The notes below the pieces were generated by a model. It did no database searches and had not been told where the DNA came from. It saw only the letters and a list, made by a program, of their open reading frames with translations. From Oscillospiraceae bacterium (lineage in GTDB: Bacteria > Bacillota > Clostridia > Oscillospirales > Acutalibacteraceae), in NCBI GenBank assembly GCA_015066345.1, contig SVOQ01000014.1, forward strand, positions 1-64,000: DNA of 64,000 nt. Reading direction: 5' to 3'. Position 1 is the stretch's first letter; every line of letters begins with the position of its first letter. This document shows, one piece after another, positions 46,149 to 49,343 of the stretch. Both the position numbers and the translations under genes were made by a program.

Positions 46149-47497
46149 ATATTTTAGTGGTAAACGGTAGTCCTAAAGGGCAATACAGCGTCACTTTACA
46201 AACTATGAATTACCTTATGAAGTTATACGGTGAGCATAATTTTGAGGTTCTCCACGCGGGTCAGCGTATAAAGGTACTTGAGCGTGATTTTACTCCTGCT
46301 AAACAGGCTCTTGAGAAAGCGGATTTGATTATTTTCTCATACCCCGTATATACTTTTATTGCTCCCTATCAGTTACACAGATTTATCGAGATTATCAAAG
46401 AAAATGGTATTGACCTTAAGGGTAAAGCAGCAACACAGTTTTCTACATCAAAGCATTTTTATGATGTTACCGCCCACAGATATGTTGAGGATAACTGTTG
46501 CGATTTAGGTTTGAATTATGTGCGTGGTTTATCGGCGGATATGGATGACCTTCTCACGGAAAAAGGACAGAAAGAGGCAAGGGACTTTTTCGAGTATGTT
46601 TTGTTTTGTATGAAAAATGGGATATACGAGAAGTGCAGAGTTAATCCAACTGAGCCTAAACACGTAAAGGTAACCGTACCACATTGTAATATCACCGAAA
46701 AAGAGGGTGATATTGTTGTTCTTACAAACTGCGAAAGCAAGGATACTCAACTTCAGAGTATGATAAATCGTTTTTGTTCCGTAAGTAAAAGAAAAACAAG
46801 AATTATTAATATAGCCGAGTATGAATTTAAAGGCGGTTGCCTTGGTTGTTTGAATTGTGCTTCTTCCGGCAAGTGCGTTTACAAGGATGGCTTTGATGAG
46901 TTCCTCAGGGGTACAATACAGACCGCTCAGGCGATAGTTATTGCTTTTTCAATAAAGGACCACTCTATGGGTGCAAACTTCAAGCTATACGACGACCGTC
47001 AGTTCTGCAACGGTCACCGTGCAGTTACAATGGGTATGCCCATGGGTTACCTCGTAAGCGGTAATTATAGCGAGGAATTTAATCTTCAGATGATTATTGA
47101 GGGCAGGGCAGAGGTTGGCAACAACTTCCTTGCAGGTGTTGCAACGGACGAAGTTTCTCCCGATACTGAGATTGATAAACTTGCCGACAGACTTGAGTAC
47201 GCTTTAGAAAACGGATACGTTCCGCCACAGAATTTCTATGGTGTGGGCGGTATGAAAATTTTCCGTGACCTTATCTGGCTTATGCAGGGTATGATGAAAG
47301 CGGACCACAAATTCTATAAAGCCCACGGTCAGTATGATTTCCCGCAGAAAAAGAGGGGAACAATGATTATGATGAAGTTCTTGGGTTCTCTTGTTTCAAA
47401 CCCTAAAATCAAAGCCAAAATGGGTAACGCAATGACCGAAGGTATGCTTATGCCTTATAAAAAGTTACTTGATAAAGTAGATTCCCAAAAGAAATAA
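46145..47497 (+). CDS. tandem flavodoxin-like / NADPH-dependent FMN reductase protein
   Basis: 450 aa made of two flavodoxin-fold parts. The first (1-180) begins MNILVVNGSPKGQYSVT, with SPKG the FMN phosphate loop, and keeps IFSYPVYTFIAPYQLHRF. The second (about 195-370) has a flavodoxin-like start (VVLTNCESKDTQLQ) and a cysteine cluster GGCLGCLNCASSGKC, as in iron-sulphur flavoproteins, which often bind a [4Fe-4S] cluster. The final 80 residues are basic and helical. It is translated with the Cys-rich membrane protein through a four-base overlap. Likely redox function with an unknown acceptor. Confidence 0.83.
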   Translation: MNILVVNGSPKGQYSVTLQTMNYLMKLYGEHNFEVLHAGQRIKVLERDFTPAKQALEKADLIIFSYPVYTFIAPYQLHRFIEIIKENGIDLKGKAATQFSTSKHFYDVTAHRYVEDNCCDLGLNYVRGLSADMDDLLTEKGQKEARDFFEYVLFCMKNGIYEKCRVNPTEPKHVKVTVPHCNITEKEGDIVVLTNCESKDTQLQSMINRFCSVSKRKTRIINIAEYEFKGGCLGCLNCASSGKCVYKDGFDEFLRGTIQTAQAIVIAFSIKDHSMGANFKLYDDRQFCNGHRAVTMGMPMGYLVSGNYSEEFNLQMIIEGRAEVGNNFLAGVATDEVSPDTEIDKLADRLEYALENGYVPPQNFYGVGGMKIFRDLIWLMQGMMKADHKFYKAHGQYDFPQKKRGTMIMMKFLGSLVSNPKIKAKMGNAMTEGMLMPYKKLLDKVDSQKK

Positions 47498-47547
47498 AAA
47501 AATAACCCTTGGTTGATGTTTCTTTACACATACAACCAAGGGTTATT
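47494..47547 (-). terminator. terminator of RNA copy A
   Basis: Stem AATAACCCTTGGTTG (47501-47515) with CAACCAAGGGTTATT (47533-47547), extended by ATGT/ACAT around loop GTAAAGAA. On the minus strand it is followed by TTTTTTATTTC. It can also stop the flavodoxin gene on the plus strand. Confidence 0.92.
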
Positions 47548-47783
47548 GTTCTATTTTAGTATCTAACATCTTTTGGTTACCTCTCTTTCGTATTATTGGT
47601 GTACTTTTCTGATCATTGAAATCGCCCCGTAATCTTGATTTTAAATTTAATCTATATAAACTCCCGTAAGTGAGAAACACTTTTGATTCGGAACATATTC
47701 AATTTTCGGTAAAGTACGGTTTATAAGGCTTTTTAGATTTTGCCTTTAGGTATTTACCTGTTCATCGGTATCACCCTTTCTTT
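47495..47783 (-). ncRNA. unassigned structured RNA, copy A
   Basis: About 289 nt without a normal gene on either strand. It is homologous to copy B in several blocks on the minus strand: the 5' block AAAGAAAGGGTGATACCGAT continuing to AGGTAAATACCTAAA, a middle block AAATTTAAAAT, GAAAGAGAGGTA, AAAAGATGTTAGATA, and the 3' terminator. It has its own promoter and ends in a strong terminator whose loop GTAAAGAA is identical in both copies although the stem bases differ. Micro-ORFs with ribosome binding sites lie at 47754-47765 (MNR) and 47543-47569 (MLDTKIEQ). Downstream on this strand is only antisense of the flavodoxin gene, so it is not an mRNA leader. Family unknown to me. Confidence 0.75.
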
Positions 47784-47789
47784 GATTAA

Positions 47790-47818
47790 ATAGTACCATT
47801 TTGAACACTCCTTTTCAA
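47790..47818 (-). promoter_or_regulatory. predicted promoter of RNA copy A
   Basis: On the minus strand TTGAAA, a 17-base spacer and TACTAT. The same layout precedes copy B, and both are followed by TTAATCAAAGAAAGGGTG. Confidence 0.8.
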
Positions 47819-47903
47819 TTCGCATATTATATAAAGTTAAAAGGCTTCATTTATTTAAAACACAGAAATTAATGTCGTAATTGTTAAGAGTGAAATAATG
47901 CCA

Positions 47904-47967
47904 TTGACAAGTATATATATTATTTGTTATACTGAATATGTTGGGTCGGCGGGATGCCGACTTTTTT
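47904..47967 (+). promoter_or_regulatory. promoter and leader hairpin of alpha/beta hydrolase gene
   Basis: TTGACA, an 18-base spacer and TATACT (47928-47933). The expected transcript begins near TGTTGGG and at once forms GTCGGC-GGGAT-GCCGAC followed by TTTTTT, a small terminator-like hairpin 19 bases ahead of the start codon. The block AAAACACAGAAATTA at 47857-47871 upstream is shared with the second cassette and may be an operator. Confidence 0.7.
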
Positions 47968-47985
47968 CTTTTAAGGGTGATAATT

Positions 47986-48729
47986 ATGAAGAACAAAAAA
48001 ATCAGAAATATTATAAAGGTTTTAGTTTGTATTATTGTTGCTTCAGGTGTTTTAGTTGGTGCAATGGGTATTTACCTTGGGGATTATTACAAGGCACAAA
48101 TTGATTCACAAACGGTTTTTGCTCCTGAAAAAAGTATAACCGTTACGACACTCGAAAACGGTAATATTCTTTTTATGCCCCAAAAACCCGTAGCGGGATT
48201 TGTGTTTTATCCGGGCGGTAAGGTGGAGTATACTGCTTATACACCACTTATGCAGGCTTGTGCTTCAAAGGGAATAGCCTGTATTTTGGTTGAGATGCCC
48301 TTTAACCTTGCGGTGTTTGATATGGATGCGGCAAAGGATATACCACAAATGTATCCTGAAATTACGGAATGGTATATAGGTGGTCACTCTCTCGGTGGCT
48401 CTATGGCGGCATCATTTATTGATAAAAACCCGCAAGAATATAGCGGTTTGGTGCTTTTAGGTTCTTATTCCACCGCCGATTTATCACAAAGCGGGATTGA
48501 TGTTTTATCTGTTTACGGTAGCGAAGATGGTGTTATGAACAGGGAAAAATACAAAGAGTATTTATCAAATCTGCCCGATGATTTTACTGAAGCAGTAATT
48601 GATGGTGGTTGCCACGCGTATTTTGGTATGTACGGCGAACAGGACGGGGACGGAATAGCCCGTATTACAAATCAGGAACAAATATCAGAAACAGCACAGT
48701 TGATTTGTAACCAAATTAAGGCAAAATAA
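47986..48729 (+). CDS. membrane-anchored alpha/beta hydrolase
   Basis: 247 aa. An N-terminal membrane segment (VLVCIIVASGVLVGAMGIYLG in part, about 10-30) places the enzyme outside the cell or in the membrane face. The alpha/beta-hydrolase core has the nucleophile elbow GGHSLGGSMAA, a candidate Asp in VYGSEDGVM, and the His in GGCHAYFGMYGEQDGDG. A lipase, esterase or peptidase role is possible; no substrate can be given. ATG 47986 follows AAGGGTGATAATT; an upstream in-frame ATG overlaps the leader hairpin and lacks a site. Divergent from RNA copy A. Confidence 0.86.
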   Translation: MKNKKIRNIIKVLVCIIVASGVLVGAMGIYLGDYYKAQIDSQTVFAPEKSITVTTLENGNILFMPQKPVAGFVFYPGGKVEYTAYTPLMQACASKGIACILVEMPFNLAVFDMDAAKDIPQMYPEITEWYIGGHSLGGSMAASFIDKNPQEYSGLVLLGSYSTADLSQSGIDVLSVYGSEDGVMNREKYKEYLSNLPDDFTEAVIDGGCHAYFGMYGEQDGDGIARITNQEQISETAQLICNQIKAK

Positions 48730-48746
48730 AAAACGCCCTCAGGCGT
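48723..48746 (-). terminator. second terminator downstream of RNA copy B
   Basis: ACGCC-TGAG-GGCGT on the minus strand followed by TTTTTTATTTT. It lies past the main copy B terminator and protects the opposite gene from antisense read-through. An extended RNA to this point would be about 415 nt. Confidence 0.8.
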
Positions 48747-48774
48747 AGCACGGAAACCTAAAAATACGTCTAAA

Positions 48775-49140
48775 ATTGAAATAACCCTTGACCGAGTGTT
48801 TCTTTACACACTTCCTTCGGCCAAGGGTTATTTCTGTTCACTCTTGATATCTAACATCTTTTTGTCTACCTCTCTTTCTTAGTTTGTAATAACTTTCTGT
48901 TTTTGAAATCTACCTGTCGTTAACACGAATTTTAAATTTCCCATAAGCGGGACTTACTTTTGCTTTTCAAATAATTTTCTTTTCAGAAGTTATTACTTGT
49001 AGGTTTAATTTGAAAATCCGATTTAATTTTTATTTGGATTTTTTAATTAAACCTGAAAGCGTTTACCGGTACATTGGTCTCACCTTTCCTCGTTTTTAAG
49101 ATTTAGGTTTTTACCTGTTCATCGGTACCACCCTTTCTTT
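48775..49140 (-). ncRNA. unassigned structured RNA, copy B
   Basis: About 366 nt, homologous to copy A in the 5' block, middle block, GAAAGAGAGGTA, AAAAGATGTTAGATA and terminator. It is longer mainly because of about 75 extra bases after the 5' block, which include a second version of the 5' module (GGAAAGGTGAGACCAATGTA). Hairpin TCCC-GCTTAT-GGGA (B) corresponds to TTCTC-ACTTAC-GGGAG (A), with compensated pairs. Micro-ORFs: MNR (49111-49122), MYR (49063-49074), MLDIKSEQK (48828-48857), each with a ribosome binding site. Downstream is antisense of the alpha/beta hydrolase gene. Family unknown to me. Confidence 0.75.
48778..48834 (-). terminator. terminator of RNA copy B
   Basis: GAAATAACCCTTG pairs with CAAGGGTTATTTC, extended by CCGA/TCGG and AGTGT/ACACT, loop GTAAAGAA as in copy A. 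On the minus strand it is followed by a modest AATTTTA tract; a second terminator lies downstream. Confidence 0.85.
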
Positions 49141-49146
49141 GATTAA

Positions 49147-49175
49147 AGAATATCATAAAAAACAAGTTTTTTCAA
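49147..49175 (-). promoter_or_regulatory. predicted promoter of RNA copy B
   Basis: On the minus strand TTGAAA, a 17-base spacer and TATTCT, equal in layout to copy A. Confidence 0.78.
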
Positions 49176-49261
49176 TACGTAATGTTGTATAAAGTTGCTC
49201 AAAAATAGTTGTGTAAAACACAGAAATTAGTGAAATGACACAATGAATTGTTTGTTTTGTA

Positions 49262-49324
49262 TTGACTTTTAAAAATGGATTTGCTATACTGATTTATGTT
49301 GGGCGGTTTATACCCGCTATTTTT
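49262..49324 (+). promoter_or_regulatory. promoter and leader hairpin of metallophosphoesterase gene
   Basis: TTGACT, a 17-base spacer and TATACT (49285-49290), then TGTTGGG and a short hairpin GCGG/CCGC followed by TTTTT. This repeats the layout before the alpha/beta hydrolase gene. The shared block AAAACACAGAAATTA is at 49215-49229. Confidence 0.68.
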
Positions 49325-49343
49325 TATTTTTAGGAGGTTTATT

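Follow-up and report, generated by a model that had tools for sequence, protein, structure and literature searches.

What do two related transcription units in an Oscillospiraceae genome produce: an RNA that acts through its structure, or an mRNA for very short peptides? The units lie on the minus strand of the window, the 64,000-nucleotide stretch of contig SVOQ01000014.1 analysed here, as copy a (about 47784-47493) and copy b (about 49141-48771). An earlier note had described them as a duplicated structured RNA, and its account of their layout is borne out. The two share the blocks quoted there, and BLAST of copy b against copy a gives E values of 7.2e-16 and 1.6e-14. Each unit begins behind TTGAAA, 17 nt and a -10 box, and each closes in a long terminator whose loop GTAAAGAA is common while the stem pairs have changed, which supports a promoter and a terminator of its own for each. 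The units are not a chance occurrence, because BLAST matches were found in 17 of the 60 genomes searched and the 3' block in 17 of the 22 genomes of the window's genus, its own included in both counts.

In the 5' block, a ribosome-binding site precedes a three-codon ORF (ATGAACAGGTAA). In the 3' block, a strong ribosome-binding site precedes an ORF of eight or nine codons (MLDTKIEQ* or MLDIKSEQK*) that ends within the terminator stem. These Shine-Dalgarno (SD), ATG and stop units inside the common blocks had escaped the earlier reading, as had the second mini-ORF of copy b (49074-49063) and a divergent promoter with a plus-strand hairpin at each unit. The two copies carry the following features (basis in brackets).

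47813..47818, minus: copy a -35 box TTGAAA (sequence; promoter profile)
47790..47795, minus: copy a -10 box TACTAT, 17-nt spacer (sequence)
47754..47765, minus: copy a 5' mini-ORF ATGAACAGGTAA (MNR*), ribosome-binding site 47772-47780 (sequence; mini-ORF statistics)
47601..47717, minus: copy a structured middle domain, GUACUUU/AAAGUAC closure, contains the CUUA hairpin; positions worked out by hand from the alignment (fold; covariation in five genus copies)
47580..47589, minus: copy a ribosome-binding site GAAAGAGAGG of the micropeptide ORF (sequence)
47543..47569, minus: copy a micropeptide ORF MLDTKIEQ* (sequence; family statistics)
47493..47548, minus: copy a terminator, stop codon included in the stem (sequence; fold)
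47819..47838, minus: copy a box B (AACTTTATATAATATGCGAA), immediately upstream of the -35 box (promoter comparison)
47852..47874, minus: copy a box A (CATTAATTTCTGTGTTTTAAATA) (promoter comparison)
47904..47939, plus: copy a divergent promoter, TTGACA ... TATACT GAATAT (sequence)
47940..47967, plus: copy a predicted tiny RNA, GUUGGG, hairpin, U-run (sequence; family statistics)
49170..49175, minus: copy b -35 box TTGAAA (sequence)
49147..49152, minus: copy b -10 box TATTCT (sequence)
49176..49195, minus: copy b box B (ACTTTATACAACATTACGTA) (promoter comparison)
49111..49122, minus: copy b first mini-ORF MNR*, ribosome-binding site 49129-49137 (sequence)
49063..49074, minus: copy b second mini-ORF ATGTACCGGTAA (MYR*) (sequence)
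48869..48878, minus: copy b ribosome-binding site GAAAGAGAGG of the micropeptide ORF (sequence)
48828..48857, minus: copy b micropeptide ORF MLDIKSEQK* (sequence)
48771..48834, minus: copy b terminator (sequence; fold)
49262..49297, plus: copy b divergent promoter (sequence)
49298..49325, plus: copy b predicted tiny RNA, GUUGGGCGG hairpin, U-run (sequence; family statistics)

We consider it probable that each unit is a free-standing micropeptide gene with 5' minigenes that guard the 5' end of its mRNA. The gene is apparently undescribed so far; in a literature search with few subscription papers in scope, no title or abstract opening describes the element. The dedicated promoter would give a transcript of very roughly 140-850 nt, usually with one to four minigenes (SD, AUG, one or two codons and a stop) at its 5' end. 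After a spacer, which in the window's genus forms a covarying folded domain, would come a strong ribosome-binding site and an ORF of mostly nine codons whose end lies within an intrinsic terminator's stem. Both the mini-ORFs and the nine-codon ORF would be translated. Ribosomes on the minigenes may shield the 5' end from a 5'-exonuclease of the RNase J type, the minigenes may also keep ribosomes local, and so short an ORF might be translated repeatedly on one mRNA, as mccA is in vitro. The nonapeptide itself would be the product and would serve as a regulator or signal, inside the cell or after export.

Support for a coding function comes from the homologues. A pattern scan for the 3' ORF block matched at least 116 stretches, and a stop follows after seven to nine codons in all 116 distinct copies among the pattern matches listed (exactly nine in 108; TAA 52, TGA 49, TAG 15). 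One scan pattern admitted solely synonymous Leu and Asp codons, so the matches of that scan are no evidence of coding. We took the coding evidence instead from copies found with a profile built from the pattern-scan copies, which gave 91 matches; 84 were kept after duplicates and one weak reverse match were dropped, 22 fitting the discovery pattern and 62 falling outside it. Profile matches left unread include most of those below about 23 bits, G139, G179, G233, G147:C51, G289:C38 and the second G164 match. Among the 62 non-pattern copies the Leu2 codon is TTA in 44, another Leu codon in 17 and ATA in one, that is, 17 synonymous changes against one non-synonymous by script, or 18 against one after L272 (MIDPK) and L278 (MLEP) were re-anchored by hand. 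A stop lies within nine codons of this Leu in 57 of the 62, and 13 have gained one whole codon before it. Across 91 nine-codon ORFs, entropy at the three positions of codon 9 is 0.31, 0.65 and 1.28, and the C-terminal residue is Lys in 71; the consensus is M-L-D-[T/I/N]-K-[S/N]-x-x-K. A copy detected solely via its divergent promoter contains a similar ORF, LEPANSMK*. A conserved frame, stop codons and synonymous substitution, the features asked of a small protein, are thus all found and, judged by these patterns, the reading frame, the stop codons and Leu2, Lys5 and Lys9 are under coding constraint. This contradicts the earlier view of selection on RNA, not protein: the most widely conserved blocks are a ribosome-binding site with a mini-ORF and a ribosome-binding site with an ORF of eight or nine codons, with a frame that holds, TAA, TGA and TAG all in use, synonymous changes and insertions of whole codons.

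Several observations count against the micropeptide reading. TTA is dominant at codon 2 outside the discovery pattern too, in copies found by a profile trained on TTA, and residues 6-8 vary among the 91 nine-codon ORFs, which would be unexpected in a signal peptide. Some copies seem degenerate (L243 and L215 lack the stop, L277 lacks start and stop, and a second copy in L205 has a frameshift at its end), and L290 has no ATG where one is expected and would need TTG or another start. Presence is also patchy, at 72 of the 394 genomes of the order, the window's own included.

The 5' minigenes are likewise a property of the family. They were counted in copies whose promoter matches the seed at no more than 8-9 mismatches, 60-66 of 124 matches once redundancy and edge filters were applied; divergent promoters thus fall outside the count, and L082 is cut by a contig end. 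An SD and ATG mini-ORF follows 46 of 60 promoters, and 43 of the 46 stop within three codons, against a shuffle mean of 8.9 and maximum of 16; the combination that defines a leader minigene is present above chance. In the profile set, 62 of 72 sense SD-CCRATG units are short, and the antisense control gave two units, neither short. By these counts the predicted minigenes are more frequent than chance. The start context is CC[AG]ATG in 45 of the 46 mini-ORFs but in only 4 of 391 ordinary starts; CCRAUG is conserved beyond what SD pairing needs, and RNA- or DNA-level constraints therefore act as well. Codon 2 is TAC in 26 of 43 (3 of 391 ordinary starts) and otherwise AAC, TTC, ATC, AGA or others. 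At least two minigenes stand in tandem in 7 of 71 profile loci, with four in L291.

The mini-ORF is missing at the other 14 of the 60 promoters, which counts against our reading. The first 45 nt there have a median folding energy of -9.6 kcal/mol, compared with -6.9 where a mini-ORF is present, and fall below -5 kcal/mol in 12 of 14, compared with 32 of 46. In Bacillus subtilis, mRNA can be protected by a 5' hairpin or by a ribosome-binding site (PMC3997798); the Clostridial units resemble these stabilisers in having one or the other predicted at or near the 5' end. The closest parallel for the minigenes is mg2 of axe-txe (with LEE1/ler as cited there), a two-codon leader minigene, likewise SD, ATG, one codon and stop upstream of an ORF, that raises expression of the ORF and for which mRNA protection is proposed (PMC8708949). 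The main ORF there encodes an ordinary protein, whereas here it has nine codons and the minigenes, with their CCRATG start context, are found in more than one order.

RNA structure is present too. Both units fold far below dinucleotide shuffles (z of -5.5 for copy a and -8.6 for copy b), and part of this excess must be due to the terminator. The covariation that the earlier note expected in homologues appears in part: five close genus copies show two-sided changes, including in the closing stem of the middle domain, together with some broken pairs, but across 10 copies RNAalifold keeps five pairs, none with a two-sided change. A covarying spacer, folded by prediction, is present in the window's genus. 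The CTTA hairpin described in the earlier note is met again, on different stems, in 17 of 113 upstream regions (shuffles: mean 5.0, maximum 10) and with five or more pairs in 11 of 113 (mean 1.9, maximum 7); a stricter criterion gave 4 of 62 and missed the genus's own hairpin. Since it exceeds chance outside the genus, some RNA structure is selected as well. The middle regions of 56 copies have a median z of -2.2, with 55% below -2. Outside the genus the sequence of the middle is little conserved, with the hairpin and the TATATAGAT motif together in 3 of 113.

The large structured RNAs of Clostridia, raiA, ROOL, OLE and GOLLD, are intergenic with their own promoter and terminator, and the unit is like them in this. 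It differs in that its most widely conserved core is coding and in its Rfam results: as the earlier note anticipated for an unassigned element, there was no gathering-score match in the window, and the five obtained from 17 homologous loci (133,971 bases) all lie off the unit. With lax limits on the element, the best matches are miRNA models on terminator hairpins, three with E < 0.01. GGGTGGTACC resembles the core of T-box leaders, but the window has no T-box match, and the single T-box found (in L031) lies elsewhere than the unit.

The promoter region, from its predicted elements, is dedicated and bidirectional, and its two promoters keep helical phase. The other arm is predicted to start a terminated GUUGGG-hairpin RNA of about 30 nt, perhaps for promoter control rather than as a product. 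In the two-promoter survey of 71 loci with at least 450 nt upstream, where hairpins were unscored, some GTTGG units show no hairpin and several longer 'mini' peptides stem from chance promoters. DnaA boxes or LytTR/VirR-like sites are candidate readings of boxes A and B. Box B, scanned at no more than two mismatches, has 22 matches in 17 of 60 copy-bearing genomes; it therefore drifts, as the other 43 have no match. We rejected a wider box B regulon: 19 of the 22 matches lie at the micropeptide gene, the other three all have two mismatches, and a reversed control pattern gives six. Pairing between GUUGG of the tiny RNA and CCRAU of the mini-ORF, suggested by both being nearly fixed, was dropped because in several copies of other families and orders the tiny RNA begins with UAUGG(G) while the mini-ORF still reads CCAATG. 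A type I toxin-antitoxin pair was also set aside: the peptide has 7-9 residues, polar by reading, and the divergent RNA and the mRNA have no overlap.

It is conceivable, though in our judgement unlikely, that the act of translation matters and the peptide does not, the RNA being a ribosome or tRNA sink (through minigene peptidyl-tRNA drop-off) or a sensor of the translation state. The bar minigenes of phage lambda act through such drop-off. Two-codon minigenes can be toxic by this route (PMC8708949), and tandem minigenes, the preference for TAC, the nucleotide-level conservation of CCRAUG and the pairing of the stop codon within the terminator 5' arm in 114 of 115 copies would all suit it. The variable codon 2 argues that no single tRNA is targeted, however, and synonymous changes preserve residues 2, 3, 5 and 9 of the main ORF, which would be needless if occupancy alone counted. 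That the unit is a structured noncoding RNA with incidental ORFs, as the earlier note held, draws on the fold scores, the covarying closing stem and the CTTA hairpin; we regard it as quite improbable given the coding signatures of both kinds of ORF, the near absence of the middle in L139 and the lack of two-sided changes across 10 copies.

The paired stop codon would also fit a leader-peptide attenuator, in which a ribosome at the stop blocks the terminator and controls a downstream gene. A regulated same-strand gene just downstream is not what the loci have: the next predicted ORF (mechanical ORFs of at least 80 codons) is on the same strand in 53 and the opposite strand in 62 of the 115 matches with one, in line with the earlier conclusion that these are not leaders, and no neighbour family recurs, the largest cluster among 395 predicted neighbour proteins covering seven loci. 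We give attenuation very little credence, and no more to a precursor whose peptide is later modified, either in the manner of microcin C or as some other short RiPP. The nearest known design is admittedly mccA of microcin C clusters, an ORF that has seven codons in the major clade, lies before a terminator and is translated reiteratively in vitro (PMC6495379). The resemblance lies in the very short ORF and its terminator; mccA precedes mccB in an operon, whereas the micropeptide gene has no recurrent neighbour, upstream minigenes, another peptide and a two-headed promoter. An mccB-like adenylating enzyme would be expected to recur nearby, and no neighbour family, judged by cluster size, does beyond those seven loci; nor is the ORF one of seven codons ending in Asn, its last residue being mostly Lys. 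The element does not appear to be phage-borne either, with no exact-pattern match in viral contigs.

The micropeptide gene is found in many Clostridia by pattern scan and profile. It is tempting to go further and speculate, quite tentatively, that the loci make up a hitherto unrecognised type of two-headed regulatory locus of Clostridia, in which one helically phased, dedicated promoter region yields the minigene and nonapeptide RNA one way and the self-terminating tiny RNA the other. One of the smallest free-standing genes known would then have the nonapeptide, possibly with the tiny RNA, as its product, and this would serve as a signal or control the translation or transcription machinery directly. 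An ORF of 27-30 nt is at or under the size limit of gene finders; a global smORF catalogue took 30 nt as the minimum length of its predicted ORFs (PMC11364881), so that the eight-codon copies would fall below its limit. Should the peptide be produced, then a gene that annotation pipelines likely overlook is present in many gut Clostridia, with leader minigenes kept across orders. The locus would then offer a natural test system for the role of minigenes, for whether peptides of nine residues act without processing, and for why a promoter keeps a partner that apparently makes just a 30-nt RNA.

The two minus-strand units that the earlier note proposed as a duplicated structured RNA exist at the positions claimed for them, as checked by sequence and BLAST, and both fold far better than shuffled sequences. 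No Rfam family reached its gathering score on the units; with lax limits the top matches were miRNA models, placed on the terminator hairpins. Of the 60 genomes queried by BLAST with copy a (about 47784-47493), 17 gave matches, its own genome counted. Several of these carry two copies, spaced slightly less than 1 kb apart, like those in the window, in genomes G018, G008 and G006, and about 0.25 kb apart in G014. At locus L029 three copies lie inside about 3.2 kb and adjoin genes that by eye are beta-glucosidase-like.

Twenty-two stretches read by eye, the window's two copies included, indicate that the conserved blocks of the element are translation units. In the 3’ block, GAAAGAGAGGT is followed after a short gap by an ORF, nine codons long in most copies, the end of which is the start of the terminator stem. 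Scanning the GTDB genome collection with GAGAGGT-N2-12-GATGTTAGATAYHAAR gave at least 124 matches in at least 116 stretches. Among the matches listed, all 116 distinct copies with enough sequence have a stop after 7-9 codons (9 codons in 108, 8 in 7, 7 in 1; TAA 52, TGA 49, TAG 15); in the other two frames the commonest first-stop position accounts for 48 and 38 of the 116; the stop codon is paired within the terminator 5’ arm in 114 of 115. Lysine is at codon 9 in 71 of 91 nine-codon ORFs, and variability at this codon is greatest at the third base.

Because the discovery pattern fixes the first five codons, we built a sequence profile and searched genomes with it, reading 84 profile rows, 62 of them outside the pattern. 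In these 62, Leu2 is encoded by TTA 44, CTA 6, CTG 6, TTG 4, CTC 1 and ATA 1, Asp3 by GAT 59, GAC 2 and other 1, and Lys5 by AAG 47, AAA 11 and other 4; a stop follows within nine codons of Leu in 57, and 13 have one additional whole codon ahead of Leu (MT-, MK-). Contrary rows are L243 and L215, in which the stop is missing, L277, in which start and stop are both lost, and L205, the second copy of which is shifted close to its end. Comparison of the copies shows, at the level of sequence, that the frame, the stops and several amino acids are conserved. Two loci share a variant form of the peptide, LEPAN(N)S(M/I)K: L290 (G095:C30:45300-46100), found solely via its divergent promoter, reads LEPANSMK and then a stop, with no ATG at the expected place, and L291 (G191:C1:52900-53600), a weak profile match, reads MLEPANNSIK and then a stop.

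The 5’ block in the 22 stretches is a Shine-Dalgarno (SD) sequence, ATG, one or two codons and a stop (ATGAACAGGTAA, ATGTACAAGTAA, ATGTACTAA, ATGCCACAGTAA), often in tandem. Among the matches listed, 46 of 60 non-redundant promoters have SD and ATG 17-29 nt past the -10 box, and 43 of these 46 mini-ORFs stop after 2-3 codons (200 shuffles: mean 8.9, max 16), with TAA 35, TGA 4 and TAG 4; the peptides include MYR, MNR, MYK and MYN. Their starts read CC[AG]ATG in 45 of 46, against 4 of 391 strong-SD long ORFs in the same loci, and codon 2 is TAC in 26 of 43, against 3 of 391. SD pairing does not explain the CC, as seen at 47490-47790 and its homologues. The 71 profile loci contain 72 SD-CCRATG units on the sense strand, 62 of them with three codons or fewer, and 20 loci have no such short unit; the antisense control gave 2 units, none short. 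By these comparisons of sequence, the minigenes exceed chance. Four tandem mini-ORFs (MNK, MK, MR, MR) occur at L291, and four loci of the window's genus (L017, L018, L020, L021) have tandem arrays, by eye four per RNA, of repeated GAAAGTGTGGTTCCGATGTAYTAA-like units that keep CCGATG with a weak SD.

Among the matches listed, the 14 promoters that lack a mini-ORF have a median folding energy of -9.6 kcal/mol over their first 45 nt, versus -6.9 for those with one, and fall below -5 kcal/mol in 12 of 14 versus 32 of 46 cases. Since mini-ORF-less promoters fold more, and RNA in B. subtilis can be stabilised at its 5’ end by either a hairpin or a ribosome-binding site (PMC3997798), we favor a role for the minigenes as 5’ guards. 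There are also known cases of minigenes that increase expression of the ORF following them (PMC8708949).

The spacer from -10 box to micropeptide ORF measures 70-769 nt in 62 copies, with a median of 219 nt; in L139 the middle is nearly absent. Compared with dinucleotide shuffles, the middles of 56 copies fold better (median z -2.2), and 55% of them have z below -2. Because the closing stem has two-sided changes in five close copies (A-U to G-C and C-G to U-A, for example, and a further series from G-C to U-A to C-G), some pairs being broken, the structured-RNA reading holds for the middle domain within the window's genus; a ten-copy consensus retained five pairs with zero two-sided changes. 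A CTTA-loop hairpin with varying stems (TCTCGCTTAAGAGA, TCCCGCTTACGGGA, TTCTTGCTTACAAGAA) is present in 17 of 113 upstream regions among the matches listed, above shuffles (mean 5.0, max 10), and therefore extends outside the genus, though in a minority of copies. The hairpin may serve as a binding site for a protein or an RNA. Paired but differing CTTA stems lie upstream of the ORF in L026, L032, L052, L077, L079, L098, L105, L134 and other loci.

Upstream of TTGAAAA ... TATATTATAG the promoter has two conserved elements, box A (ATTTCTGCGTTTTGCACAA) and box B (AACTTTGTACAATATTCCATC). Box B appears specific to the micropeptide gene, where 19 of its 22 matches in 60 genomes are found with two mismatches allowed, though 43 of these genomes have none and the reversed pattern gave 6 matches. 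Upstream on the opposite strand lies TTGACA-N17-TATAAT-GTTGGG, then a hairpin and usually a T-run, predicting a divergent tiny RNA. Among the matches listed, a strict regex found this unit in 40 of 66 (about 3 expected) and a looser one in 49 of 61, with folds below -6 kcal/mol in 44 and a T-run in 36 of the 49. Of 71 profile loci, 32 carry it on the opposite strand (same-strand control, 1), as do 20 of the 52 outside the discovery pattern (control, 1). Searching 30 genomes for the divergent promoter gave 27 matches: 23 at known copies, one leading to the unseen L290, and three apparently unrelated. The -35 to -35 distances of all 49 listed units form three classes, each separated from the next by roughly a turn of the helix, with a Rayleigh R of 0.97 at 10.5 bp (kinship ignored), a comparison showing the two promoter sequences to be linked and phased. 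Several copies from other families and orders have TTTACA as their divergent -35, and their predicted RNA starts UAUGG(G) or GUUGG.

In the window both divergent units precede genes, labeled by reading their proteins as family guesses:

47904-47967, plus strand: divergent promoter-hairpin unit of copy a, 5’ region of alpha/beta-hydrolase-like gene (ATG 47986)
49262-49325, plus strand: divergent promoter-hairpin unit of copy b, 5’ region of metallophosphatase-like gene (ATG 49344)

These two hairpins could be attenuators of those genes. The tiny RNA is not generally an attenuator, because an SD-bearing ORF of at least 60 codons begins within 200 nt in just 21 of 45.

Profile searches found the element in 72 of 394 genomes and 40 of 169 genera of the order, at class level in 26 of 291 genomes with an E threshold of 0.01, of which 12 reach 1e-6 or better when the window's own genome is not counted, and in one of 299 in a phylum sample, the window's own. 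The 80 titles seen, of at least 116 stretches, all denote MAGs, labeled Clostridia, Oscillospiraceae, Ruminococcaceae, Lachnospiraceae, Ca. Faecousia and similar, or plain bacterium, many naming ruminant or other animal guts. The next predicted downstream ORF is on the same strand in 53 and the opposite in 62 of the matches listed; no neighbor family recurs in more than 7 loci among 395 predicted neighbor proteins, and viral contigs gave zero exact pattern matches. A BlaI/MecI-like repressor gene, recognized by eye near the elements at L077 and L107, is probably unrelated.

We propose that the element would be transcribed and its ORFs translated, that the minigenes would protect the 5’ end of the RNA, and that the micropeptide ORF would be translated reiteratively, as shown in vitro for mccA (PMC6495379), with the peptide itself acting. 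The main alternative is that what matters is translating the ORF and not the peptide. Individual parts of the element resemble known kinds, namely mccA and leader minigenes. To our knowledge, their combination matches no known system. These sequences form a real and widespread family of predicted micropeptide genes, which, judging by the Rfam and literature searches, is apparently undescribed.
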